Assembly: GCA_945860355.1 (NCBI GenBank)
Contig: CAMARB010000011.1
Location: 1 to 41,254 of the forward strand
Reading direction: 5' to 3'
DNA from: Chthoniobacter flavus
GTDB taxonomy: Bacteria; Verrucomicrobiota; Verrucomicrobiia; Chthoniobacterales; Chthoniobacteraceae
Length of the DNA stretch: 41,254 bases
The position numbers were made by a program, and so were the translations under genes. Positions within the stretch are counted from its first letter, which is position 1. Each line of letters begins with the position of its first letter. This document shows positions 2,802 to 39,123 of this stretch, piece by piece. The notes under the pieces are model-generated. The model ran no database searches. It was not told where the DNA came from and saw only the letters and a program-made list of their open reading frames with translations.

Positions 2802-3635
2802 ATGATCTGGAAAACCCACACCCGCCAATTCGACCTCAGCCAAAAGGGGCTGACCATGGGGGTGCTCAACGTGACGAGCGACTCGTTTTCCGATGGCGGC
2901 CAATTCCTGGACCCCGCGTCCGCCCTGGCGCACGCCCGCTCTCTGCTGGAAGCCGGCGCCGACGTGCTCGACATCGGGGGCGAATCGACCCGCCCAGGGG
3001 CATCCCCGGTGGACGAAGCGGAGGAGATCCGGCGGGTCCTCCCGGTCATCGAAGCGCTTGCCCGGGAAACCCGGGTCGCCCTCTCCATCGACACCATGAA
3101 ACCGGGGGTCGCACGGGCCGCCCTGGAGAAAGGGGCGGAGATCGTCAACGACGTGACCGGCCTGCAAAACGCCGAGATGCGCGAGCTGATCCGGTCCACG
3201 GGTTGCGGCGCGGTGGCCATGCACATGAAAGGCACCCCGCGCGACATGCAGGACGCGCCTTTCTACGGGGATATCCTGGAGGAAATCCGGGGTTTTTTTC
3301 GACAAACCCTCGAGGCCTGCCTACGGTCCGGGATCGACCCGTTGTGCCTGGCGTTTGACCCCGGCATTGGCTTCGGAAAGACGCTCGCACACAACCTGAC
3401 TTTGCTGCGGAACCTGGAGTCGCTCCGGGTGGGCGCGCGTCCCCTGGTGCTCGGGGTCTCCCGCAAATCATTCATCGCAAAAGTGTTAGGAACATCCCCC
3501 CTCGAAGACCGCCACTGGCCCACCGTGGCGTTGACCGCCTACGGCCGGATCCGCGGCGCCCAAATCGTCCGGGTCCATGAAGTCGCTCCCAACCTTCAGG
3601 CAATGCGTATGACCGAAGCCCTGCTCGCCCCATGA
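2802..3635 (+). CDS. folP: Dihydropteroate synthase
   Basis: LTMGVLNVTSDSFSDGGQF, DIGGESTRPGA, SIDTMKPGVARAALEKGAEIVNDVTG, LAFDPGIGFGKT, LVLGVSRKSFI motifs. Confidence 0.95.
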   Translation: MIWKTHTRQFDLSQKGLTMGVLNVTSDSFSDGGQFLDPASALAHARSLLEAGADVLDIGGESTRPGASPVDEAEEIRRVLPVIEALARETRVALSIDTMKPGVARAALEKGAEIVNDVTGLQNAEMRELIRSTGCGAVAMHMKGTPRDMQDAPFYGDILEEIRGFFRQTLEACLRSGIDPLCLAFDPGIGFGKTLAHNLTLLRNLESLRVGARPLVLGVSRKSFIAKVLGTSPLEDRHWPTVALTAYGRIRGAQIVRVHEVAPNLQAMRMTEALLAP

Positions 3636-4510
3636 GTCTCCAGGCGCTTCTCACCCAGCACTGGAGGGATCTGCTGGAGATTGCGATTCTCTGGGCCGCG
3701 ATCTACCGCGCCTGGCTCTATTTCCGAGGCACCCGAGGCGCCAAGGTGCTCACCGGCCTGGCCGTGCTCCTGCTGGTCATCGCCCTGTGCTCGGAGATTT
3801 TCGAGCTCCCCGAGATCAGCTGGCTGTTCCGCAACCTGGTCACGTTCATGGCGTTTGCGCTGGTGGTCATCTTCCAGCCCGAACTGCGCAGGGCCCTGGC
3901 GGCGCTCGGCAGCCACCCGATATTCGCATCCGTCACCCAGAGCCGCGAAACCATCGAGGTGCTCACGGAACTCACCTTCGACCTGGCCAACCAGCAACTC
4001 GGCGCCTTGCTGGCCATCGAACGCGACACGAACATCGATTCATTTGCCGAAACCGGCGTGCGCATCGACTGCGAGTTGTCCTCGGAACTGGTGCTGAGTA
4101 TTTTCCAGCCCAAAACCCCCCTGCACGACGGCGGCATCATCCTGCGCAACGGGCGCATCGTCTCAGCCGCATGCGTTTTTCCGGTCAGCCAACGGATGGA
4201 TCTCGATCGAACACTGGGGACGCGGCATCGGGCCGCACTCGGGCTCACCGAGGAATCCGATGCCGTGGTTGTCGTGGTCAGCGAGGAGACGGGGATCGTC
4301 TCCGTCTGTCACCGCGGCCAAATCGAAAGAAACTTTGACCCCCGCACATTAAAAAAACGCCTGGGCGAACTGCTCCTGCTCCAGAAGAATGAAAACTCTC
4401 CTCCACCTGCTCCTGCATCACTGGCTCGCGAAACTCGTCTCCCTGGTGCTGGCCGTCGTGTTGTGGGGAGTGATCAAAAAGAGCATTCAGACGACCGTCA
4501 CCCCGTCTAA
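3632..4510 (+). CDS. cdaA: Diadenylate cyclase CdaA (DAC domain, membrane-bound)
   Basis: N-terminal TM helices; DAC motifs PLHDGGIIL and GTRHRAALGLTEESDAVVVVVSEETG; start overlaps the folP stop (ATGA). Confidence 0.93.
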   Translation: MSLQALLTQHWRDLLEIAILWAAIYRAWLYFRGTRGAKVLTGLAVLLLVIALCSEIFELPEISWLFRNLVTFMAFALVVIFQPELRRALAALGSHPIFASVTQSRETIEVLTELTFDLANQQLGALLAIERDTNIDSFAETGVRIDCELSSELVLSIFQPKTPLHDGGIILRNGRIVSAACVFPVSQRMDLDRTLGTRHRAALGLTEESDAVVVVVSEETGIVSVCHRGQIERNFDPRTLKKRLGELLLLQKNENSPPPAPASLARETRLPGAGRRVVGSDQKEHSDDRHPV

Positions 4511-6625: not shown

Positions 6626-6644
6626 CCGCTCGTCAGGCGGGAGC

Positions 6645-6720
6645 GGGTGAGGGGTGAGGGGTGAGGGGTGAGGGGTGAGGGGTGAGGGGTGAGGGGTGAG
6701 GGCTGAGGGGTGAGGGGTGG
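6645..6720. repeat. 7-bp tandem repeat (GGGGTGA)x10 plus partial; G-quadruplex-compatible tract
   Basis: Direct reading of GGGGTGA units at 6651-6720, with one GGGCTGA variant and a terminal GGGGTGG. Confidence 0.95.
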
Positions 6721-7022
6721 AGGGAATGTTTTTCGAGCGGGAGCAAAGGAGCCGTCGCTTGAAAAAAAGGGGAGCGCGGGGCTGCATTTGCAATCCCGGC
6801 AAAGTGGGTGGAGGTTCGATTACAAATTCATAACCCCCTCAACCGAGGGGCTCGGCATTTCAGGAACGGGGGCGGGTATCAACGGGGTGGTCATGACGGT
6901 TTCTCTCAAGCAATTCCTCAACGGCAGTTCCGCAACTGCGACCGGATAGATAACCGCAGGCGGCCCGCTGCACATGCCGCATCCCGCCAAGCCCCCGCAC
7001 CCATTTTAAACCATCGCGTATT

Positions 7023-7454: not shown

Positions 7455-7487
7455 AAGCGCGTCAGCGCTCCGGGGGGCCCATCGGTC

Positions 7488-7568
7488 CGATCGGTCCCAT
7501 CGGTCCCATCGGTCCCATCGGTCCCATCGGTCCCATCGGTCCCATCGGTCCCATCAGTCCGATCAGTC
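7488..7568. repeat. 9-bp tandem repeat, 9 units of CCCATCGGT with variant end units
   Basis: Direct reading: CCCATCGGT / CCGATCGGT / CCCATCGGT... / CCCATCAGT / CCGATCAGT. Confidence 0.95.
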
Positions 7569-7594
7569 AAATAAGCCCCCCTGTTCCACACGCC

Positions 7595-11615: not shown

Positions 11616-11985
11616 GACTGGTGCGTTCGGTTCAAGTTTGGCTTGGCAAAACTTCGTTCACAGGACACGCGTAGAACCGGCTGACAGGGATTCGGCACCC
11701 GCCGCGGGATTCACCGTCAGCTGAGGGGCGAGGTTCATTGCGCGGCATTTAAAGGAGGCACCGCTCTGATCGCGACTCGAAAACGGCCAGCCAATGCCCC
11801 CCGACTCATTTCCTTTTTTGGGGGACAGACAAACTGTGTGAAGGCCGCGTAAATGAGTCCGTCTTTCTGCTCCCCCGGCCTCCTTATCGATGGGCGAAGC
11901 GGAACTTTGGCAGACTGGGACCCCAAAGTCTCCGCGATTGAGAACGCCACGCTCCTCCGATCCGGTCCAGTTCGGATCTCCGGGT

Positions 11986-12066: not shown

Positions 12067-13128
12067 TTAGTCGTGGAATGTCCCGGAGGGGCGCACCGCT
12101 TTATTCCGCAAATCCCGCACGGCGAACAGCCCATGCAGATCCACGTTCCTCATTTCCCGGGCGCCATTCTTCCGACGACTCCCAAACCGCTCCCGGTTCT
12201 TTTTGAATACCCGCTCCACGAAATCCCCTGCCCCTATCGCGCAGCCGTCGCTGAAATACCGCACACGACAACGCAGCGACTGGTAAAAGCTCAACTTCCC
12301 GCCCGACCGGATCACCGCCTCCACCTCCCGAGCTCCCATCCCCCGGCGCGCCCCCAGCCCGTCGGGCCCCGCTTCGCGCTCCTCCCCGTTTTCGAACAGA
12401 TAAACACGGTATCGGGCCAACAAACGCCGCATCTCCTGGCACTCGGTTTCCCCGGGGCGCTCGGATGCCAGCACGCCCATCACGACCTTTTTCAGGCCCA
12501 GCTCTGCCGGCGTCCGCCCCGCCACGGCCTCCGCATAACCGCTCCAGCGGTAATCGGCCGGATCTTTTATGATCCCGGCTCGCACGGGGTTGAGGTCGAT
12601 CTACGCCGCCATGGTCGAGAGCGTCTGGCCAGTGCCCTCCACCAGCACGCTCTTGAAACGCCCCTCCCACAGAGTTCCACACCGCTCGTTCCGGGCGTTG
12701 AACCACTGCGAAAAGCGCTGTTTCACCCCCTGCATGAAGCTGGCCAGATTCCACATCCGGCGCAGAAACCGCCCCCGGAGCCGTTCCGCCCCGGCGTCAT
12801 CGCCAGCGCCACGCATTTCGGCGAGTTGCCGCTCCAGTTCCGACGCCGGATAGGAAAGCTCGGCCCGTCGAACCAGCCGCACTAGCTCCGCATCATCGGG
12901 CATGGTTTCCGGGCGTCTGGTCACGTGCACCAGCACATGCACGTGGTTGCTCATGACGCAGAAGGTGAGCACTTGCACGCCGCAGAACTCCTCATAGGCC
13001 CGGAGAATCTCGACAAACTTCTCTTTTTCCCGGTCCCCGAACGCGAACCGCCTCTCGACGACCCGCGTCACGCAGTGATAACCCGCCTCCAACGCCCCCT
13101 CCTCCGCCAGCAGCCTCCCCATCCTCAT
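12067..13128 (-). pseudogene. REP-associated tyrosine transposase-like (RAYT, HUH/Y1) interrupted by one in-frame amber codon
   Basis: N half: YHCVTRVVERRFAFGD..VMSNHVHVLVHV..MQGVKQRFSQWFNARNERCGTLWEGRFKSVLVEG..LSTMAA*; C half continues in the same frame: IDLNPVRAGIIKDPADYRWSGYAEAVAG... TAG lies at 12601-12603 (minus strand). Confidence 0.88.
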
Positions 13129-20148: not shown

Positions 20149-20379
20149 CCCGAACCGGGCATGGGCGCACACCGCCGCCCCCTCGGTCGGAAACGTTTTG
20201 AGACACGGTTCATCGGCGGGACTTCCACGGTTTCAAAAGACGAAGCCGCGACGGAGAAGCTCTGCCTCCGGGCGGAGCAACCCATAGACAGCACGCCGGA
20301 ACAGAGCTCCAGGGCCCATTCACTCGCAGGACTTTCCGAGCCAAGTCCGAGCGGGGCCAAAGGCCCGCGTTGGCACAAC

Positions 20380-20638
20380 CGCTCCCCTACGCCTACGGCG
20401 CTCCCGTCCTCCAGCCCAAGGTTGCGGTCGCCAGATCGCTCCCTTGGGACCACATCCCACCAAACCTTTCAACCCCAACGGGGTTGCGCCCCATACGCCG
20501 TTCTCCCATCCGTCCCGGCCGGAACCGCTTTGCGGTTCAATCGGCACTCCACTCATTCCCAGGGTAGGCCTCATTCCATTCGGCCGACCCTGGGCTGGAG
20601 GTCGTAAGCCCTTCGGGCTGGAAGCCCGACCACCACTC
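20380..20638 (+). repeat. Structured interspersed repeat, copy A
   Basis: Aligns end to end with 38526-38783 and 38866-39123; shares CAACCCCAACGGGGTTG, GAACCGCTTTGCGGTTC and CCCAGGGTAGGCC...GGCC.ACCCTGGG hairpins. Confidence 0.92.
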
Positions 20639-20956
20639 CGCCGCCTTCCTCGGGGAGCCGCCTTCCTCGCGGGGCGGTGGGGGCGGCTGGGGACAGGCAA
20701 CCTGGGATCTGACCATTCACCGGGGATCCGCAGGCTTTCGCGCGAGCCCTCATCGGGAAGTTAAGCCGCAAGCGCCTCATTTTGAACGCAAGTCGGGGCT
20801 AGAGGGAGGGCTCACGCGTCTAAAATTCAGCTTTGCGGGGGGCGGGGACGCACAAGTTCTCAGAGTGCGTGGCAAGGCGGAGGGCCTTGTTCCCCGGGGG
20901 AACAGAGAGAGTAGCCAACGGTGGAGCAAAGCGACACCACCGGAACGCGGCCCCAA

Positions 20957-20982
20957 AAACACCCCACCCCGCGGCGGGGTGG
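20957..20982 (-). terminator. Rho-independent terminator-like hairpin downstream of the giant exoprotein gene
   Basis: Minus strand: CCACCCCG-CCG-CGGGGTGG followed by GGTGTTTTT. Confidence 0.6.
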
Positions 20983-21052
20983 CAGAGGATTTGTTCCCCG
21001 GGTGCTCTCTGGCTTTCAAGGAGCCCGGATAAGACATCCCTGCGTCGACGGG

Positions 21053-24000
21053 CTACAGCTCCAGAAACTTCCGCCGCGCGCTTGGCTCGCCCGAAAGGAT
21101 CTGCCCGAGATTATCCCAGCGCCCATTGATTCCCAGCGTGCGGATCACCCAGATGTGACCGGAGGGTTCCAGCGTCTCGTCCCGGTAACCCAGACTCCAG
21201 TTCATCAGATCGAACGGAACCGGACGCACAAACGCAGGCCGCAGCGGAGCCTGATCTTCCGGCGTCACGGGCGGCTTCACGGGCACCTCGGGGTCCACAG
21301 GGATCGGAGGAATCATTGGCGGCTTCACAGCCAACGGCTGAAGGACATACCCGCTTCCGTCCACCGAGTTGAACTGCTCGGACATCCTCGCGTTTTTGGC
21401 CACCCCGGACCCGGCCAGCCGCGTCACGTTGTTTTTCCCAGAAACGGCCCCGCTGGCCGTGTTCCAAAAGACCGTCTTCGCGCCGGTCGAGTCCGGCGAA
21501 TAGGACAGCGTCCCGTTGAACGCGATCTTGGGGGAAACCATGCTCAGCCCGATGTCTTTGAGCCCCGCGTTCGTGAACTCCCCGGCGGCCCGCGCCAGCA
21601 CTTGGAGATTGTCCACATTGAGGTCCATCGAGACCGACGCGGCGAGGTCACCCACCACACCGCTCGCCGCCGTCACCGACAGCGCGCCGTTGCTCACCAC
21701 CAGCTTGTGGCCACCGCCCATCACGAACTTGTCCGACTCAAACGCCACGTCCCCACTCGGCTTCACGATCGACGAACGCCCGGAGGCCGTAGGACGTTCC
21801 GTCGGGTTGAGCGCGATCATGGCGCCGGACGCGTAACGGGCCCCTTGCAACACCAGCAAGTCACTCGCGTCCAAGGTCACGTCGCCCGCCGCCGACACGC
21901 CGCCCACTTCCACCCGGTTGCCGCGCGCGCTGAAACCCTCCAGCGCACCGCTTACGCCGGACTCACCCGTCACAGTCACGTTCCCGCTTGTCGCCAGCGA
22001 CACGGCGCCCGCACCGTCCGCCCCGGCATTGAGCGTCAAGGCCCCGCCCCCCGTGCTGCGCAGAGCAACAGGGCCCGACACCTGCACCGCGTCTCCGTAG
22101 GTCTGGGTGCCCGTCGTCGTCACGTCGCCGGTGATCTCGGTCGACCCGCCCGCGTCCGTGCTCAGGCTCGCCACGCTGATCCCGCCGCCCAGCGTCGTCA
22201 CCCCCGCCGTGTTCACCGTCAGATCATGCGCCCCGTCGGCCCCGCCGTTGAGCGCCAAAACCCCGCCGGCCGTGCTCGTCAGAATCGTAGCCGCCCCCAG
22301 AACCGCAGCGTCATCGTACGTCTGCGCACCCGTGGTTGTGATAGTTCCGGAAAGCCTCACCGTCCCGCCCGCGTCCGTCGTGACACTGCCCACGCTGATC
22401 CCGCCGCCCAACTGCGTGACGCCGCCCGTGTTGATCACCAGCGCCAGATCCCCCGTCGCCCCGGCGTTCAGGGTCACGTCGCCGGAATTCGTGCTCGTAA
22501 GCACCGCATCCTGCGCCAGCGTCACCCTGCCGCCGTACGTCTGCGCCCCGCTTGTGGTCACCGCACTCGTGCTCAGAAGGGTCGCGCCCGTCACTCCCAG
22601 CGTGCTCAGTCGGCTGACCGCGCCGTTAAACTCCGCGTTCCCGGTCACGCCGAGGCTGTTCGCACCACCCGCAACCGTGTCGGCAAAACTCACCGTCGTG
22701 CCGGTCAGCGCGGTGTCTCCGATCAACTCGGACTGTTCCCCGTAACTCTGGGCCCCGGTCGTCCGGATGTCGCCGGCAAGCCTCACCGTCCCGCCCGCGT
22801 CCGTCGTGACACTGCCGACGCTGATCCCTCCGCCCAGCTGCGTGACGCCGCTCGTGTTGATCACCAGCGCCTGATTCCCCGTCGCCCCGGCGTCCAGGGT
22901 CACGTCGCCGGAACCCGTGCTCGTAAGCACCGCATCCTGCGCCAGCGTCACCCTGCCGCCGTACGTCTGCGCCCCGCTTGTGGCCACCGCGCTCGTGTTC
23001 AGAAGGGTCGTGCCCGTCACTCCCAGCGCGCTCAGCCCGCTGACGGCACCGTTAAACTCCGCGTTCCCGGTCACGCCCAGGCTGTTCGCGCCGCCCGCAA
23101 CCGTGTCGACAAAACGCACCGTCGTCCCGGTCAGCGCCGCGTTGCTGCCCAGCGTCACCGCACCCGTGTAGGTTTGCGCTCCGGAGGTCGTCACCGTTCC
23201 GCCGTTGATTGCCGTGGTCCCGCTGACAGAAAGCGAGCTCAGGCCCGTGGCCGCACCTCCGAACACCGCGTTCCCGCCCACAGCGAGGCTGCTTGCGCCG
23301 CCCGCAAGCGTGTTGCCAAAACTCACCGTCGTGCCCGTCAGCAAGGTGTTTCCGATCAACTCCGCCTGTTCACCGTAACTCTGCGCACCGGTCGTCCGGA
23401 TGTCGCTGGAAAGCCTCACAGTGCCGGGTCCGTCCGTCGTGATACTCGCCACGTTGATGCCGCCCCCCAGCGTCGTCACTCCGGCCGTGTTCACCGTCAG
23501 ATCAAACGCCCCGCGGGCCCCGCCGTTGAACGCCACAGCCCCGCCGCCCGTGCTCGCCAGGGTCGTTGCCGCCCCCAGAACCGCCGCGTCGTTGTAAGTC
23601 TGCGCACCGCTGGTGGTCACCGTCCCGGGCAGCTCCACCGTGCCGCCCGCGTCGGTTTGCAGGCTGGCCAAGTTGATCGCGCCCCTGAGCCGCGTCACCC
23701 CGGAGGTGTTCACGTTGAGCGCGAACGCACCCGTCGCCCCCGCGTTCACGTTCACGTCGCTCGCGCCGGAGCTGCTCAGGGTCGTCGCGGCCCCCAGCAC
23801 AAGCGCGTCGGAGTAATCTTGCGACCCGCTGGTCGTCACCGCGCCGCCATTCAGCGCCGTGCTGCCGCCGACGTCCGTCAACACGCTGGCCGCCCGCACC
23901 GCGCCTTGAAAGGTCGCCGTCCCGGTCGAGAACACCGACAAGTCCCCGAGCGCCGTGGTCCCACCCAGCGCGGCCGACGCCGCGATGTTCCCGGCGCCCG

Positions 24001-27000
24001 AGCTCAGGGTAAGCTTCTGCGCACCGTTGAGTTGTTTCTCGATGTTGAGCGCACCGCCGCCCGTCTGAATCAGCGTCTCCTGAAGCAGCGAATAGTTCTC
24101 CTTCACCGAGAGACTCCCAGTCCCGTCCGCGCGGCCCAGGGTGAGTTTGTTAAACCCGGCCAGTGCGATCGCCCGCAGCTTGGACTGAGTCAGATCAAGC
24201 TGACCCGCCACGACGGTCGTTCCGAAGAACGTCATGTTCGTCGCAGAGGTTCCCGTTCCCAGCTGCAGTCCCCGCGTCCCGGTGATCGTCCCGGTGTTTG
24301 TCCCGGCAGAGCCTGCCAAGAGCATCTCGTTGGCCAGAAGCGCAAGGTCGTTCGCCCCGGCCGCCAGCGTTTGCGAAACTGTCAGGGTCCCCCCGGCCTC
24401 GAGCGTTCCGCCGTTGAGCAACTCCACCGACTCGGCATACGACTGGAGGCCGCTCGTCCTTACCGCCACTGCGGGACCGCCCACCCTTCCGAGGATGGTT
24501 TTCTGAGGGAAACCGGTGACGTCCGCCCCCCTCGATATCGTAAGGGATGCCAGTGGCGTGGTTGCGCCCAGCGATTCCGCCAGAGTTGTGAGCCCCCTGC
24601 TGTTGAGCGTCACCACGGAGCCGCCATCCAGCGCTCCGAGGACCATGAGGTTGCCCGTGCCGCTGTCAAACGTTGTGTTCTCCGCTAAAAGATTCGTCCG
24701 CCCCACCACGGTGAAATCCGCAGTCGCCTCGCCCCGGCCCACGATCAGGCTTTTTATGTTGGCGCCAAAGGCGCCCCAAGATTCGGGCGAAACCACGAGC
24801 GCTCTCGGGTTCGTCACGGAGTCTAAAAGCCGGACCGGGATATCCTTGCTCGGGGTGTAGATCTCCAATTTGCCCACATTCGAGATCGAGCCGGGACCGC
24901 CCAGGAGCGAAAGGTCGCTGTCGGAATAGAGGCTGAGGTTTTTGCCGTTCCCACTGATTGCCACCCCCGGATTGAACCTGATTGAACCATATTTCGGCCC
25001 CGTGGCGTCCAGCAGCCTGTTGTCGCTGCGGAGTTCGGTGTGGGTGGGCAGGGTCCAGCTCTCAAGGACCTCGATGGGAGCATGGTTCAACGACTCCGGG
25101 TCGCCGATGCGCAGCAAGGCGACGGACTCCTTAATGCGCCCCAACTTGGACGAGTTGAGATCCATCGTCTTTTTCGGGTCGAAGGCGTATGACGAGCCCA
25201 CAGAGCGATTGAGGAGGAACCTGAAAGGCACCGAATCAATCGAGCCGAAGAAGTTCACGGCCAGAGTGGACAGGTCGGAGACATCCTGGTTGATGTCGAG
25301 CCCCATGCTCCTCACCCAGAGCCGCTTCAAAGCCTTGTCGGAATGCAAGGTTCCTCCGGTCGGGACGTCGAGGATGACGTTGGTTCTGACGAACAAAACC
25401 GTGTTCGCCTTGAGCGAGAACCGCGAAGTTTTACCGAAACCTGCGACCCGCAAATCGTTTTCCATTTCATAGCGCCCAAAGACGATCGACGTGAAATCGT
25501 TCCCGATCTGCTCGTATTCCGCCTCCGTGATCGTCAAACGGTCGGGAACCTGGCTAGCCACGCCCAAGACCATGCCCCTCCGAACGGGGTTCAGGGTCGG
25601 GCTCACAGTGAAGTTATTCGCCGGCTGGATTGTGAGCGTGTCCGTCCCGGAAATGGGGGCAAGGAGATCAATCTCCATCCCGCGCAGGTCCAAGGGCTTT
25701 TTGGTAAGGGTGAGGGCGGCGTTCACCGACACAGTTGCCGACGAATGGAGACTGAGCCCGGTCACGGTGCTCCCCGTCAAGTCGATCGGCGCGTTGATCG
25801 TCGTGCTCCCACCCACCGTTGCGTTCTCGCGACCCAGCTGCAGGACGCCCGCGAAATTCTTGGCCAGAGTGTTGAGATCGTCCACGAGCACTGTGAAGAC
25901 GTTTTTCGTGGCGTCATAGGGGCGCCGCCCACCGCCATACACCTCCAAACCCCAGGTTGATTCCTTCTGGATGGGCGGGGAAATCGTGAGACCGCCAGCG
26001 CCCGTCACCGCAGAGAGCTTCCCGGGCGCTGACTGAATATCGCGCGCCGAGATCGCCAGGGACTTGCGACCGGCGTTGACGCCTTCGTTAAAGATGACCG
26101 GACCGCCGCTGGAAAGCCTCAGCAGCCCTCCCTTCGCGCCGGCGCCGGCATTCAACGCCAGACTATCGAGCACGGTGAGTGTGGTGTCTAGGGGACTCAA
26201 CTCATCGCCAATTCTCAGCTCGCTGTTCCCGTCGGCGATCTGCTTGAGCATTGCCGTATCCAGGCGCAACGTTCCGGGGACCACTGTGTCCTGGCCGGGT
26301 TTGGTCATGTCTAAGATCTCGACGTTGGCGCGGATCGCGGTGGCAGTCGTGCTCCGCATCGGCAGGAGGGTCACGATCGCGTCCTTGGCGGACAACCCCG
26401 CCTTCAGATTGATCACGTTGCCCGTGAGCTCAAAGGTGCTCCCCGTCGGGACCGAGACGGCGATGTTTCCGACAATGCCTGCGGTTCCCGACCTGAATTG
26501 AATCAGGCTTGTGGCGGGGGCGCTCCCGCCAACGATCAACGCATTGCTGTCGATCGGCGGAACACTCTCCCCGATCGAAAACACGGCCGAGCTGTCGGAG
26601 CGCCCAAACGTCAAACCGATGAAGTCTGATTTCCCGGTGGTCCCGTTTTCGAGGGCGAAGAGCTCCTGCCTTGTCAGGTCCAACTGTCCGGCCGTCAGGT
26701 TGTCTTTCGCCGCCAGCCTGAGTCCCGTCGTGGTGTTCGCCTGCTCGAATGTCAGCGCCCCGCTGCCGGTGACCGACCCCTTGGCGCCCGTCAAATTGAT
26801 CTCGTCCGCCCGCAGCACGAACTTTCCGTAGCTCGTGGAGGTGCTGGCCCCCTGCCCGGCTTTGAGGATCGCGGCGCCCACGCTGAGAACGCCGTTCCGG
26901 GCCGCGTCGGTGCCGAGCACCTGAAACGTCGACGTCGGGAACAAGCCAGCCGCCGACGCGTCGACGTTTCCCAGGATAGTGATGCCGTCGTCGCTCGCCG

Positions 27001-28561
27001 CGGCCCCGTGGTCCACGGTCAGGTTCACAGCCGCGCCCTTGGTTATCAGCTGGCTTCCAGCGCCCAGCGTCAAGAAGCCGCCGCCGTCCGCGTCCGAGTC
27101 CGCCGTGAAGTTGATCGCCCCGTTGTTTGTGGAGATCGAGATCCCTGGATTCACCACGAGGTTGCGCCCGGCGCTCGCTGCGAGCCCCGCCCCGGCCCTG
27201 GTCATGGCGATCGCCTGGTTAAACGTGATGTCGTTCGTCGCGCTCAGGGTCACAGAGGCCGCGGCGCTGTTGATGACGGAGGCGTCCACAGTCTGGTCGC
27301 CCGATCCGCCAATCGTTCCGGCGCCTCCCGTCGCAATCGTCAGATTGGTGGGATCCAGAAGCCAGTCACCCATTTTCCCTTGGGGCGAACTCGCGTCCAC
27401 CCTCGCCGTCTGGCCCACGCCCAACGTCAGTTTGCCGGAGGTCTCCACCTGGCCACCCGCCTGCCCGGCGCCCACGCCGCGCGCAGAGATCTGGCCGTCA
27501 AACTGCGTCGCGCCGTCCGCCCACACCACCACCTTGCCGCCCCCGCCGTGCCTCACGGCGTCGGCCTGGATGACGGTCGCCGCGTCCACGGTCGTCGTCT
27601 GAGCGCGATTCACCGCGCCGCCCCCCTGCCAGTCGCCGCCCAGCAACACCGCGCCCCCCCCGAGGTCCCCGCTCGCGTCCAGCTTGGCGCCCGTCAACGC
27701 CACCGTCTCACCCGTCACCTCGATCCGGCCCCCCTTCCTGCCCTTGCCGCGGGCCGACGCATCGATCCGCCCGCTCACCTCCACTCGCCCGCCTTTCCCC
27801 CCCCTCAACACCGCTTCCTCAGCCAGGATCTCACCGCTGTGCCGGAGGGCCACCGCGTAAAAGTCCCCGGCGCCGAGCAGCACCTTCTTCGCCACGATCC
27901 GCCCCGTGTTGACCACCCCCGCCTTCGCCGCCTTGCCCGGCGTGGCAGGTCCACCCTGGCTCACGTACACATTCCCCCCGCGCTCGCCCACCAGCACCTC
28001 GTCCCCGGCGACCATCGACACCATTCCCTTCGCCGATTGGACGACCCCGGTGTTCACCACATGCGCTCCAAAGAGGTTCACATCACCAGTCGCGCGGATC
28101 GTTCCCGCGTTGTTCACCTCGCCGCTCAGCTCCGTGAACCGGCGCCGACCCGCCAGAAAATCCTGGTCGCTGATTTTCCCGGCGGCGGCGACGATCCCGC
28201 CGACGTTGAGCACCGAACCGTTCTCGAAGAACACACCCGACGGGTTCACCAGCATCACCTGCCCGTTCGCCTTGAGCTGCCCGAAAATCCGGGTCGGATT
28301 GCCGTCCGTCACGCGGTTGAGCACCCGCGCCGTCGCCCCGGGCTGCACAAACGTCACCGCCTCCTTGCGGTCGATGTTGAACCCGCGGAAGTTGATCACC
28401 GCACGGTCCGAGGCGCGGATCTCCATCCGCCCGCCGTCCCGCTTAAAACTCGCCTTTCCGTGCGCCACCGACTCCCCCTGAGGCAGAGCCATCGCCCGTT
28501 GCCCGCCGATGGTAGCCAAAAGGGTCGCTATCGAAGTCGCTAGATACTGGTGTGCCTTCAT
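21053..28561 (-). CDS. Filamentous haemagglutinin/TPS-domain giant exoprotein, ~2502 aa
   Basis: Signal-like MKAHQYLATSIATLLATIGGQRAMA then TPS domain (RMEIRASDRAVINFRGFNIDRKEAVTFVQPGATARVLNRVTDGNPTRIFGQLKANGQVMLVNPSGVFFENGSVLNVGGIVAA) and a long repetitive beta-helix-like region. Start placed at 28561. Confidence 0.92.
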   Translation of the reverse strand: MKAHQYLATSIATLLATIGGQRAMALPQGESVAHGKASFKRDGGRMEIRASDRAVINFRGFNIDRKEAVTFVQPGATARVLNRVTDGNPTRIFGQLKANGQVMLVNPSGVFFENGSVLNVGGIVAAAGKISDQDFLAGRRRFTELSGEVNNAGTIRATGDVNLFGAHVVNTGVVQSAKGMVSMVAGDEVLVGERGGNVYVSQGGPATPGKAAKAGVVNTGRIVAKKVLLGAGDFYAVALRHSGEILAEEAVLRGGKGGRVEVSGRIDASARGKGRKGGRIEVTGETVALTGAKLDASGDLGGGAVLLGGDWQGGGAVNRAQTTTVDAATVIQADAVRHGGGGKVVVWADGATQFDGQISARGVGAGQAGGQVETSGKLTLGVGQTARVDASSPQGKMGDWLLDPTNLTIATGGAGTIGGSGDQTVDASVINSAAASVTLSATNDITFNQAIAMTRAGAGLAASAGRNLVVNPGISISTNNGAINFTADSDADGGGFLTLGAGSQLITKGAAVNLTVDHGAAASDDGITILGNVDASAAGLFPTSTFQVLGTDAARNGVLSVGAAILKAGQGASTSTSYGKFVLRADEINLTGAKGSVTGSGALTFEQANTTTGLRLAAKDNLTAGQLDLTRQELFALENGTTGKSDFIGLTFGRSDSSAVFSIGESVPPIDSNALIVGGSAPATSLIQFRSGTAGIVGNIAVSVPTGSTFELTGNVINLKAGLSAKDAIVTLLPMRSTTATAIRANVEILDMTKPGQDTVVPGTLRLDTAMLKQIADGNSELRIGDELSPLDTTLTVLDSLALNAGAGAKGGLLRLSSGGPVIFNEGVNAGRKSLAISARDIQSAPGKLSAVTGAGGLTISPPIQKESTWGLEVYGGGRRPYDATKNVFTVLVDDLNTLAKNFAGVLQLGRENATVGGSTTINAPIDLTGSTVTGLSLHSSATVSVNAALTLTKKPLDLRGMEIDLLAPISGTDTLTIQPANNFTVSPTLNPVRRGMVLGVASQVPDRLTITEAEYEQIGNDFTSIVFGRYEMENDLRVAGFGKTSRFSLKANTVLFVRTNVILDVPTGGTLHSDKALKRLWVRSMGLDINQDVSDLSTLAVNFFGSIDSVPFRFLLNRSVGSSYAFDPKKTMDLNSSKLGRIKESVALLRIGDPESLNHAPIEVLESWTLPTHTELRSDNRLLDATGPKYGSIRFNPGVAISGNGKNLSLYSDSDLSLLGGPGSISNVGKLEIYTPSKDIPVRLLDSVTNPRALVVSPESWGAFGANIKSLIVGRGEATADFTVVGRTNLLAENTTFDSGTGNLMVLGALDGGSVVTLNSRGLTTLAESLGATTPLASLTISRGADVTGFPQKTILGRVGGPAVAVRTSGLQSYAESVELLNGGTLEAGGTLTVSQTLAAGANDLALLANEMLLAGSAGTNTGTITGTRGLQLGTGTSATNMTFFGTTVVAGQLDLTQSKLRAIALAGFNKLTLGRADGTGSLSVKENYSLLQETLIQTGGGALNIEKQLNGAQKLTLSSGAGNIAASAALGGTTALGDLSVFSTGTATFQGAVRAASVLTDVGGSTALNGGAVTTSGSQDYSDALVLGAATTLSSSGASDVNVNAGATGAFALNVNTSGVTRLRGAINLASLQTDAGGTVELPGTVTTSGAQTYNDAAVLGAATTLASTGGGAVAFNGGARGAFDLTVNTAGVTTLGGGINVASITTDGPGTVRLSSDIRTTGAQSYGEQAELIGNTLLTGTTVSFGNTLAGGASSLAVGGNAVFGGAATGLSSLSVSGTTAINGGTVTTSGAQTYTGAVTLGSNAALTGTTVRFVDTVAGGANSLGVTGNAEFNGAVSGLSALGVTGTTLLNTSAVATSGAQTYGGRVTLAQDAVLTSTGSGDVTLDAGATGNQALVINTSGVTQLGGGISVGSVTTDAGGTVRLAGDIRTTGAQSYGEQSELIGDTALTGTTVSFADTVAGGANSLGVTGNAEFNGAVSRLSTLGVTGATLLSTSAVTTSGAQTYGGRVTLAQDAVLTSTNSGDVTLNAGATGDLALVINTGGVTQLGGGISVGSVTTDAGGTVRLSGTITTTGAQTYDDAAVLGAATILTSTAGGVLALNGGADGAHDLTVNTAGVTTLGGGISVASLSTDAGGSTEITGDVTTTGTQTYGDAVQVSGPVALRSTGGGALTLNAGADGAGAVSLATSGNVTVTGESGVSGALEGFSARGNRVEVGGVSAAGDVTLDASDLLVLQGARYASGAMIALNPTERPTASGRSSIVKPSGDVAFESDKFVMGGGHKLVVSNGALSVTAASGVVGDLAASVSMDLNVDNLQVLARAAGEFTNAGLKDIGLSMVSPKIAFNGTLSYSPDSTGAKTVFWNTASGAVSGKNNVTRLAGSGVAKNARMSEQFNSVDGSGYVLQPLAVKPPMIPPIPVDPEVPVKPPVTPEDQAPLRPAFVRPVPFDLMNWSLGYRDETLEPSGHIWVIRTLGINGRWDNLGQILSGEPSARRKFLEL
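22355..23206 (-). repeat. Two adjacent near-identical 426-nt intragenic units (142 codons each) in the exoprotein gene
   Basis: Matching blocks at a constant 426 nt offset, e.g. 22355 vs 22781 and 22475 vs 22901. Confidence 0.85.
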
Positions 28562-29148
28562 ATAAAAAACGCGTGCTCTGCGGTTTGAAAAACGTCGCGC
28601 AGCCCTCCCGGGCCAACGCCCGGCACACCTGCGCTTTGCCATGCCCTGCCGCCGCCACCCGGGGGCGCAGCGTGCGCATTCCGGCGGCCGAACCCCTCAG
28701 GCGGGCGCTCACCGTCCGCACTTCCAGCAGCGAAAAACCCGGCTCGAAACGCGGCACGCTCCCAAAAGCATCCGAGTCGATCCGGAGCCGCGCCATGATC
28801 GGATGAATTTTTCGGCGGACGATGCACGGTTCATGAATGCGCGCCACCTCCTCCGAGTTAGCAAAGAATGTGTTGGCCCCCGAAACTCGGCCGAAGTGGC
28901 CAAGGCAGGCGCAACCGACAACCGGGGGCCGCGCACGAACAGCCCTGGGAACATCAATGCACAGGCAGGGCCTGCATCGTGCGCCTCATTCGACTCGCCC
29001 CAAGGACTCCTCGAATTGCGCGCGCGATGCAGGCTGAATAGCCTCTGCTCCCGGTGGCGACTGATCAGTCAACGACTTCAGCCCTTCCGGCGGGACGGAC
29101 AATCACCCGACGATCCGCCGTTTGCCGCAGGGCCCATCCGCCCGCGGC

Positions 29149-38456: not shown

Positions 38457-38525
38457 GGCGTCCTGTAGCAGAGCCGGAAGCGCCATGCAAAGACGCAGCC
38501 CGAGCGAACCCAGAACGCACAGATC

Positions 38526-38783
38526 CGCTTCCCTACGCCCACGGCGTTCCCGGCCTCCAGCCCAGGGTTGCGGTCGCAAGAACGCTACCCTGGGACCATG
38601 TCCCGCGAAACAATTCAACCCCAACGGGGTTGCGCCTCATACGCCGTTCTCCCATCCGTCCCGGCCGGAACCGCTTTGCGGTTCAATCGCTACTCCACCC
38701 ATTCCCAGGGTAGGCCTCAGTCCATTCGGCCAACCCTGGGCTGGAGGCCGTAAGCCCTTCGGGCTTGGGGGCCGAGCACCCGT
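38526..38783 (+). repeat. Structured interspersed repeat, copy B
   Basis: See copy A; closing stem CGGCCTCCAG/CTGGAGGCCG around four hairpins. Confidence 0.95.
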
Positions 38784-38789
38784 CCTCAG

Positions 38790-38837
38790 CATTCCTCGCC
38801 AAACGCATTCCTCGCCAAACGCATTCCTCGCCAAACG
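38790..38837. repeat. 16-bp tandem repeat CATTCCTCGCCAAACG x3 between copies B and C
   Basis: Direct reading, three identical units. Confidence 0.95.
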
Positions 38838-38865
38838 CCGAAGGCATTCCGCCCTTCAGCCCGGC

Positions 38866-39123
38866 CGCTTCCCTACGCCCACGGCGTTCCCGGCCTCCAG
38901 CCCAGGGTTGCGGTCGCGAGACCGCTACCCTGGGACCATGTCCCGCGAAACGATTCAACCCCAACGGGGTTGCGCCTCATACGCCTTTCTCCCATCCGTC
39001 ACGGCCGGAACCGCTTTGCGGTTCAATCGGCTCTCCACCCATTCCCCGGGGTAGGCCTCATTCCATTCGGCCAATCTCGGGCTGGAGGCCGCGAGCACTT
39101 CGGGCTGGGTTCCGACCACCCAT
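38866..39123 (+). repeat. Structured interspersed repeat, copy C
   Basis: Same element as A and B; first hairpin GCGGTC-GCGA-GACCGC is perfect with a GNRA loop. Confidence 0.95.

Follow-up and report, generated by a model that had tools for sequence, protein, structure and literature searches.

Intergenic six-hairpin repeats of Chthoniobacter flavus as probable miniature elements of a subclass 1.2 Y1 transposase

What is the repeat that occurs three times in a stretch of 41,254 nucleotides of Chthoniobacter flavus (contig CAMARB010000011.1, hereafter the window)? The preliminary description, made from the sequence letters, reported three copies (A, B and C) of a repeat with a multi-hairpin fold. 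All three are present as described, every quoted stem was found in the sequence, and each copy is located between genes (Table 1). Copy C follows copy B at an offset of 340 nt.

Table 1. Coordinates of the repeat copies and the transposase gene in the window, with one comparable locus from another genome
Feature	Position	Strand	Details
Copy A	20379..20619	.	H1 20415-20448 (+), H4 20558-20594 (-)
Copy B	38525..38775	.	complete six-hairpin element (sequence, R1 model, genome copies)
Copy B, left half			h0 ACGCC-CAC-GGCGT 38535-38547; H1 38561-38594; H2 38616-38632
Copy B, right half			H3 38668-38684; H4 38704-38740; h5 AAGCCC-TTC-GGGCTT 38752-38766
B-C spacer	38776..38864	.	contains tandem GCATTCCTCGCCAAAC units
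Copy C	38865..39109	.	directly 5' of transposase gene; H1 38901-38934 (+), H4 39045-39081 (-)
Y1/HUH transposase, 161 aa	39198..39683	+	PF01797, Pfam E 9.4e-18
Locus L087 (another genome)			hairpin 3504 (+); Y1 3607-4059; hairpin 4099 (-)

The repeat is not confined to the window. A genome search with a copy, as the preliminary description had proposed, revealed 14 places by BLAST, several of them partial and one overlapping another copy on the opposite strand; an H1 covariance model gave 17 matches in the same assembly (3.9 Mb, 276 contigs, 86.5% complete). Longer copies are 83-93% identical and some copies are truncated. Their left boundary is sharp at CCG(C)TTCCC and the surroundings differ between copies. 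One long left flank is common to five copies, and left flanks resembling the B-C spacer adjoin other copies (L009, L012). The window also harbors repeats of other kinds. Large repeats at 22096-23673, with spacings of 207, 219, 426 and 633, lie inside overlapping long ORFs (20921-24688 on the plus strand, 21053-28642 on the minus strand) and probably represent a repetitive protein. Short tandem arrays at 7457-7591 and 6631-6738 consist of 9-base GGTCCCATC units and 7-base GGGTGAG units.

Each unit is composed of two inverted three-hairpin ends, h0-H1-H2 and H3-H4-h5. In copy B, the R1 model matched H1 on the plus strand and H4 on the minus strand. The folding z-score of this copy is -5.2 as RNA and -6.2 as DNA, and none of 200 shuffles equals it. 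The single closed fold enclosing four hairpins, which had been proposed originally, is not the one of lowest energy. Because the outer arms are identical and in inverted order, H1 can pair through its 5´ arm with the 3´ arm of H4, and this pairing yields -121 kcal/mol as RNA against -88 kcal/mol for the closed fold, which is thus about 33 weaker. Pairing just outside H1 and H4, the presumed closing stem included, is only weakly above that of mismatched partners (8.6 vs 7.1 of 12 in 89 elements). The conserved units are local hairpins.

We cut 89 distinct palindromic elements from the collected loci. Among them h0 is present in 81 and h5 in 83 (about 8 and 9.5 after shuffling), and in 71 of them H1 and H4 are separated by exactly two hairpins (2 after shuffling). 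H1-H4 spacing is mostly 87-134. The six-hairpin order is kept in these elements across phyla while their stems covary. H1 itself consists of an 8-bp outer arm, an unpaired T.T, an invariant G-C, a short covarying inner stem and often a GNA-type loop. As for the borders of the unit, we considered whether a common outer terminus exists beyond h0. Some lineages have TCATGAA there and the source genome has GGGACAG, and we rejected the idea because such a terminus is not general in 371 flanks. An additional palindrome, with TTCATGAAC or GAGCCTGTCATG, borders the units of some lineages (L353-L363 of genome G273; L021-L039) and is not general either.

The preliminary description lacked a transposase gene that starts 89 nt past copy C. 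Its product contains DHVH at position 55, WQ at 106 and YIDAQAEHH; the latter fits the Y motif of subclass 1.2, Y---Q--HH, found in 124/126 relatives. Judged by protein motif, the window's transposase is a TnpAY1 of subclass 1.2. A scan of the flanks found no right-end hairpin unit downstream of the gene, and the locus is therefore not a complete autonomous element. No solved structure matched the protein by sequence at E 0.001, and distant BLASTN in the plasmid collection gave no match. The source genome encodes a second Y1 of subclass 1.2 (G000:C47:16792-17226, L298), which is flanked by inverted hairpin ends of a different kind, CCGGCGGT...ACCGCCGG.

Is the neighborhood of hairpins and this transposase a coincidence? 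In other genomes, Y1 genes of the window's kind are located between inverted hairpin copies, as exemplified by the last row of Table 1. Within the window's phylum (388 genomes), 20 of the 21 genomes positive for H1 (model R1) encode Y1 at E<=1e-20, compared to 75/388 overall (Fisher p 1e-14). Further, when 50 genomes of Verrucomicrobiota, Planctomycetota, Acidobacteriota and others were picked solely by DNA motif, 41 encoded Y1, 38 of them at E<=1e-20. A Y1 of this kind was absent from one H1-positive genome (G346) and from 9 of the 50 motif-picked ones, mostly draft assemblies. The pattern used for searching species genomes was CAGCCCAGGGTTG-N(4-30)-CTACCCTGGG; the matches listed include records titled Verrucomicrobia, Kiritimatiellota, Lentisphaera, Planctomycetota, Acidobacteria, Hydrogenedentota, Prevotella, Desulfonatronum and others. 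Because many of these records are metagenome bins, an isolated unexpected taxon may reflect a binning error. Prevotella sp. P5-108 harbors many motif copies (L086, L095, L132, L169) and its sole related Y1 is without hairpin flanks, which may reflect transfer or the loss of a cognate enzyme.

The association also follows enzyme phylogeny. In a tree of 124 Y1 proteins, partly chosen through the motif and with one false hairpin (L274) counted as positive, the T.T hairpin label requires 5 changes, compared to 26 after shuffling, and 0/500 shuffles were as low. The clade nearest to the window's Y1 (n=28, SH-aLRT 99) has the T.T hairpin in 26/28 members, which are 26 of the 29 positives in the tree. 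In a sample chosen by Y1 alone, the hairpin accompanies 6/7 proteins of at least 55% identity (window excluded), 2/23 at 48-55% and 0/59 below. Orientation is regular as well: the upstream hairpin is sense in a ratio of 25:2 and the downstream one antisense in a ratio of 20:4; two false hairpins (L224 downstream, L274) are included in these counts. These two originated from a tolerant hairpin rule, added because strict scans overlooked variants whose inner stem has fewer pairs, and both were excluded from alignment A1.

Gene-less units in genome G273 retain a trace of their origin. In five dispersed units, portions of the 456-nt Y1 gene survive, all from within nt 367-442 and at 74-83% identity (lowest E 6e-13); no such remnant was noticed in the window's own copies. 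Because they keep a stump of the Y1 3´ end, we regard them as internal-deletion derivatives of a gene-bearing element; ends common with an autonomous element and a gene remnant, the two marks of a MITE, occur together in this genome. We suggest that the 240-250 bp unit is very probably a miniature gene-less transposable element of REPIN/TIR type, and that its halves (h0-H1-H2 or the inverse, H3-H4-h5) are the ends of a small transposon with only a subclass 1.2 Y1 gene. Contrary to the initial statement that no annotated feature class explains the repeat, it can be viewed as an end unit and miniature derivative of a Y1 (HUH) transposon.

A possible mechanism is as follows. DNA of the unit would be exposed as a single strand on the lagging strand or during repair, and each exposed end would fold into three hairpins. 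The Y1 transposase, which has a single catalytic tyrosine, would read the H1 hairpin and its tyrosine would cleave near the element ends. The element, gene-bearing or gene-less, might then be moved or copied. Gene-less copies would originate by internal deletion and be mobilised in trans. Unpaired T or mismatched bases are the contact points for IS608, ISDra2 and TnpAREP (PMC8266576), and for this reason we propose T.T as the recognition mark. The anatomy of the unit and its association with the transposase are observed directly; binding, cutting and transposition, as well as the choice of transposase for the source-genome copies, are what we infer from these patterns.

Regarding that choice, another transposase could have moved the source-genome copies, since a second repeat, GGGACAGRCAAA, adjoins most of them. 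This repeat is found in the window at 11822-11832 and 20690-20700, has 37 matches in the genome, against a single one for the reversed control, and is similar to GGGGWSAS, the TIR motif of published TIRYTs. Other Y1 genes are located within about 1.3 kb of it (C221:4202, window 12919-13083, C88). The source-genome copies might thus be passengers of a GGGACAGRCAAA element moved by a different Y1/TIRYT, and this would be compatible with the proposed nature of the unit itself. The excess over the reversed control, the close Y1 gene on C221, the presence of GGGACAGRCAAA near about 9/12 six-hairpin copies and the long left flank shared by five of them all speak for such hitchhiking. On the other hand, copies B, C and L009 are without GGGACAGRCAAA, and dispersed six-hairpin units elsewhere have no outer sequence that is generally shared (371 flanks). 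We take hitchhiking as a tentative, rather unlikely alternative.

The preliminary description had argued for selection on a folded RNA or ssDNA, leaning toward RNA. There is strong support for selection on a folded single strand. Across 42 H1 hairpins, covariation amounts to 0.314, compared to 0.107 in shuffled alignments (0/500 shuffles reach it) and at most 0.078 in slid ones, and the order of the six hairpins is kept in the 89 distinct elements. In alignment A1, the outer arms, T.T and adjoining G-C were partly selected for and only the inner stem is free of this bias; T.T and the adjoining G-C do not vary, and both were partly required during hairpin collection. Three pairs of the inner stem have 38 double changes, and the inner stem, unconstrained by the search pattern, covaries widely among the pattern matches listed.

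The RNA part of the earlier suggestion fared worse. A structured non-coding or cis-regulatory RNA family would account for the strong fold, the covariation and the position of copies between genes. Nevertheless, the unit is inverted-symmetric and so has no unique sense strand, one transposase clade is flanked by it on both sides, and stumps of the transposase gene persist in some copies of a relative. Comparison with Rfam, another proposed check, gave 0 matches at the gathering cut-off over the whole window. Because of the inverted symmetry, the Y1 flanking, the gene stumps and the lack of an Rfam family, we favor folded ssDNA rather than RNA. The loops point the same way. GNA-type triloops, which are common in stable DNA mini-hairpins, make up 52/98 triloops. 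Loops frequently take this GNA form, with a closing pair and a preceding tandem G.A. Mini-hairpins of the d(GCGAAGC) type are very stable DNA, and one of them has reportedly been used in a DNA-aptamer paper. As DNA, the T.T strand, which has the purine loops, is more stable than its complement in 39/41 cases. The repeat is most likely not an RNA gene, and we consider an RNA family very improbable.

A classical GTAG-REP or REPIN moved by a class 2 RAYT is also a remote candidate. There is an inverted hairpin pair adjoining a Y1 gene, dispersed without the gene in 89 distinct elements, and the source genome has other Y1 genes. The details do not fit, though. Instead of GT[AG]G, the 5´ foot of the hairpin is CAG/AG before CCCAGGGT, and GTAG is found solely inside the stem of the complementary strand, not as the foot of a whole hairpin. 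The class 2 motif Y--NP occurs in 0/126 linked enzymes, of which 124 have Y---Q--HH, and the association tracks one subclass 1.2 clade. Finally, old neutral repeats with an inverted structure arisen by chance would agree with the divergence and truncation of copies, but are hardly credible given stem covariation that exceeds all shuffles and slides and a six-hairpin order kept across phyla. An attC or another recombination site was among the candidates as well, and no integrase was noted.

The observation is wider than the preliminary description saw, because about two thirds of the examined subclass 1.2 genes have inverted-symmetric ends. In 59/88 Y1 genes the upstream and downstream flanks are inverted copies of each other above 98% of mismatched controls. 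Flanks with at least three perfect hairpins make up 45% (upstream) and 53% (downstream), compared to 5% of control windows. Their order is that of the window: a short hairpin with a 3-nt loop, a larger H1, a short hairpin, and the inverse on the other side. Hairpin flanks were also found in planctomycete (Lacipirellula) and Methylococcaceae examples. The published trait of subclass 1.2, no REP or terminal hairpins, thus disagrees with the 59/88 inverted-symmetric flanks; membership by protein motif stands, because absence of hairpins is a descriptive trait and not a motif. It seems reasonably likely that subclass 1.2 Y1s as a whole form a large unrecognised class of ssDNA transposons with three-hairpin inverted ends (h0-H1-H2) and seed miniature six-hairpin elements in Verrucomicrobiota, Planctomycetota, Acidobacteriota and further phyla. 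Hairpin types would then co-evolve with enzyme clades: the window's clade has the T.T-mismatch hairpin, and many others have a perfect 8-bp stem whose loop is of 3 nt, for example AAC.

The proposed nature of the unit has several consequences. Firstly, a transposase group reported without a substrate acquires a natural candidate for one. Secondly, dozens of enzyme/hairpin pairs become available for studying co-evolution of HUH enzymes and ssDNA hairpins. Thirdly, widespread intergenic hairpin repeats that lack an Rfam match and are mistakable for RNAs are accounted for. Searches of the openly available literature, including those by hairpin sequence with only unrelated matches among those listed, found no earlier description of the six-hairpin set; a prior mention elsewhere is possible.

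How does the element relate to known systems? In IS200/IS605 elements, hairpins lie on the same strand at both ends. In the present unit the two ends are inverses of each other (sense 25:2 upstream, antisense 20:4 downstream, false hairpins included), and no tnpB was noted next to the window's gene. The likeness to this family, represented by IS608 and ISDra2, consists in a class 1 Y1 and subterminal hairpins that are contacted at unpaired or mismatched bases (PMC8266576). The window's gene resembles TnpAY1 subclass 1.2 in the motifs DH[IV]H, WQ and Y---Q--HH and in a length of about 150 aa (PMC6006769). The Quentin et al. 2018 survey enters REP as "no" for this subclass and gives its range as mostly Cyanobacteria and Bacteroidetes (PMC6006769). 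Here the genes are found in 75/388 genomes of the window's phylum, many with hairpin ends. As in TIRtrons, a Y1 gene is enclosed by inverted ends that are partly self-complementary, and dimers of these ends are dispersed (Di Nocera et al. 2013, PMC3733652); the sets in the part of that text considered here have GGGGWSAS or unrelated TIRs, and it describes no three-hairpin end (PMC3733652). REPIN/RAYT systems are similar in having two inverted ssDNA hairpins in a gene-less unit tied to a Y1, a mismatch or bulge in the hairpin, and enzyme-hairpin co-evolution (Bertels and Rainey 2011, PMC3116915; Corneloup et al. 2021, PMC8266576). They differ in that our unit lacks a GTAG foot, has three hairpins in each half where theirs has one, is about 240 bp long, and has another enzyme class and a low copy number. 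Taken together, the element appears to act in the manner of a REPIN or TIRtron repeat. It lacks two defining features of GTAG-REPs, the foot tetranucleotide and the class 2 enzyme, as well as the same-strand hairpins of IS200/IS605.
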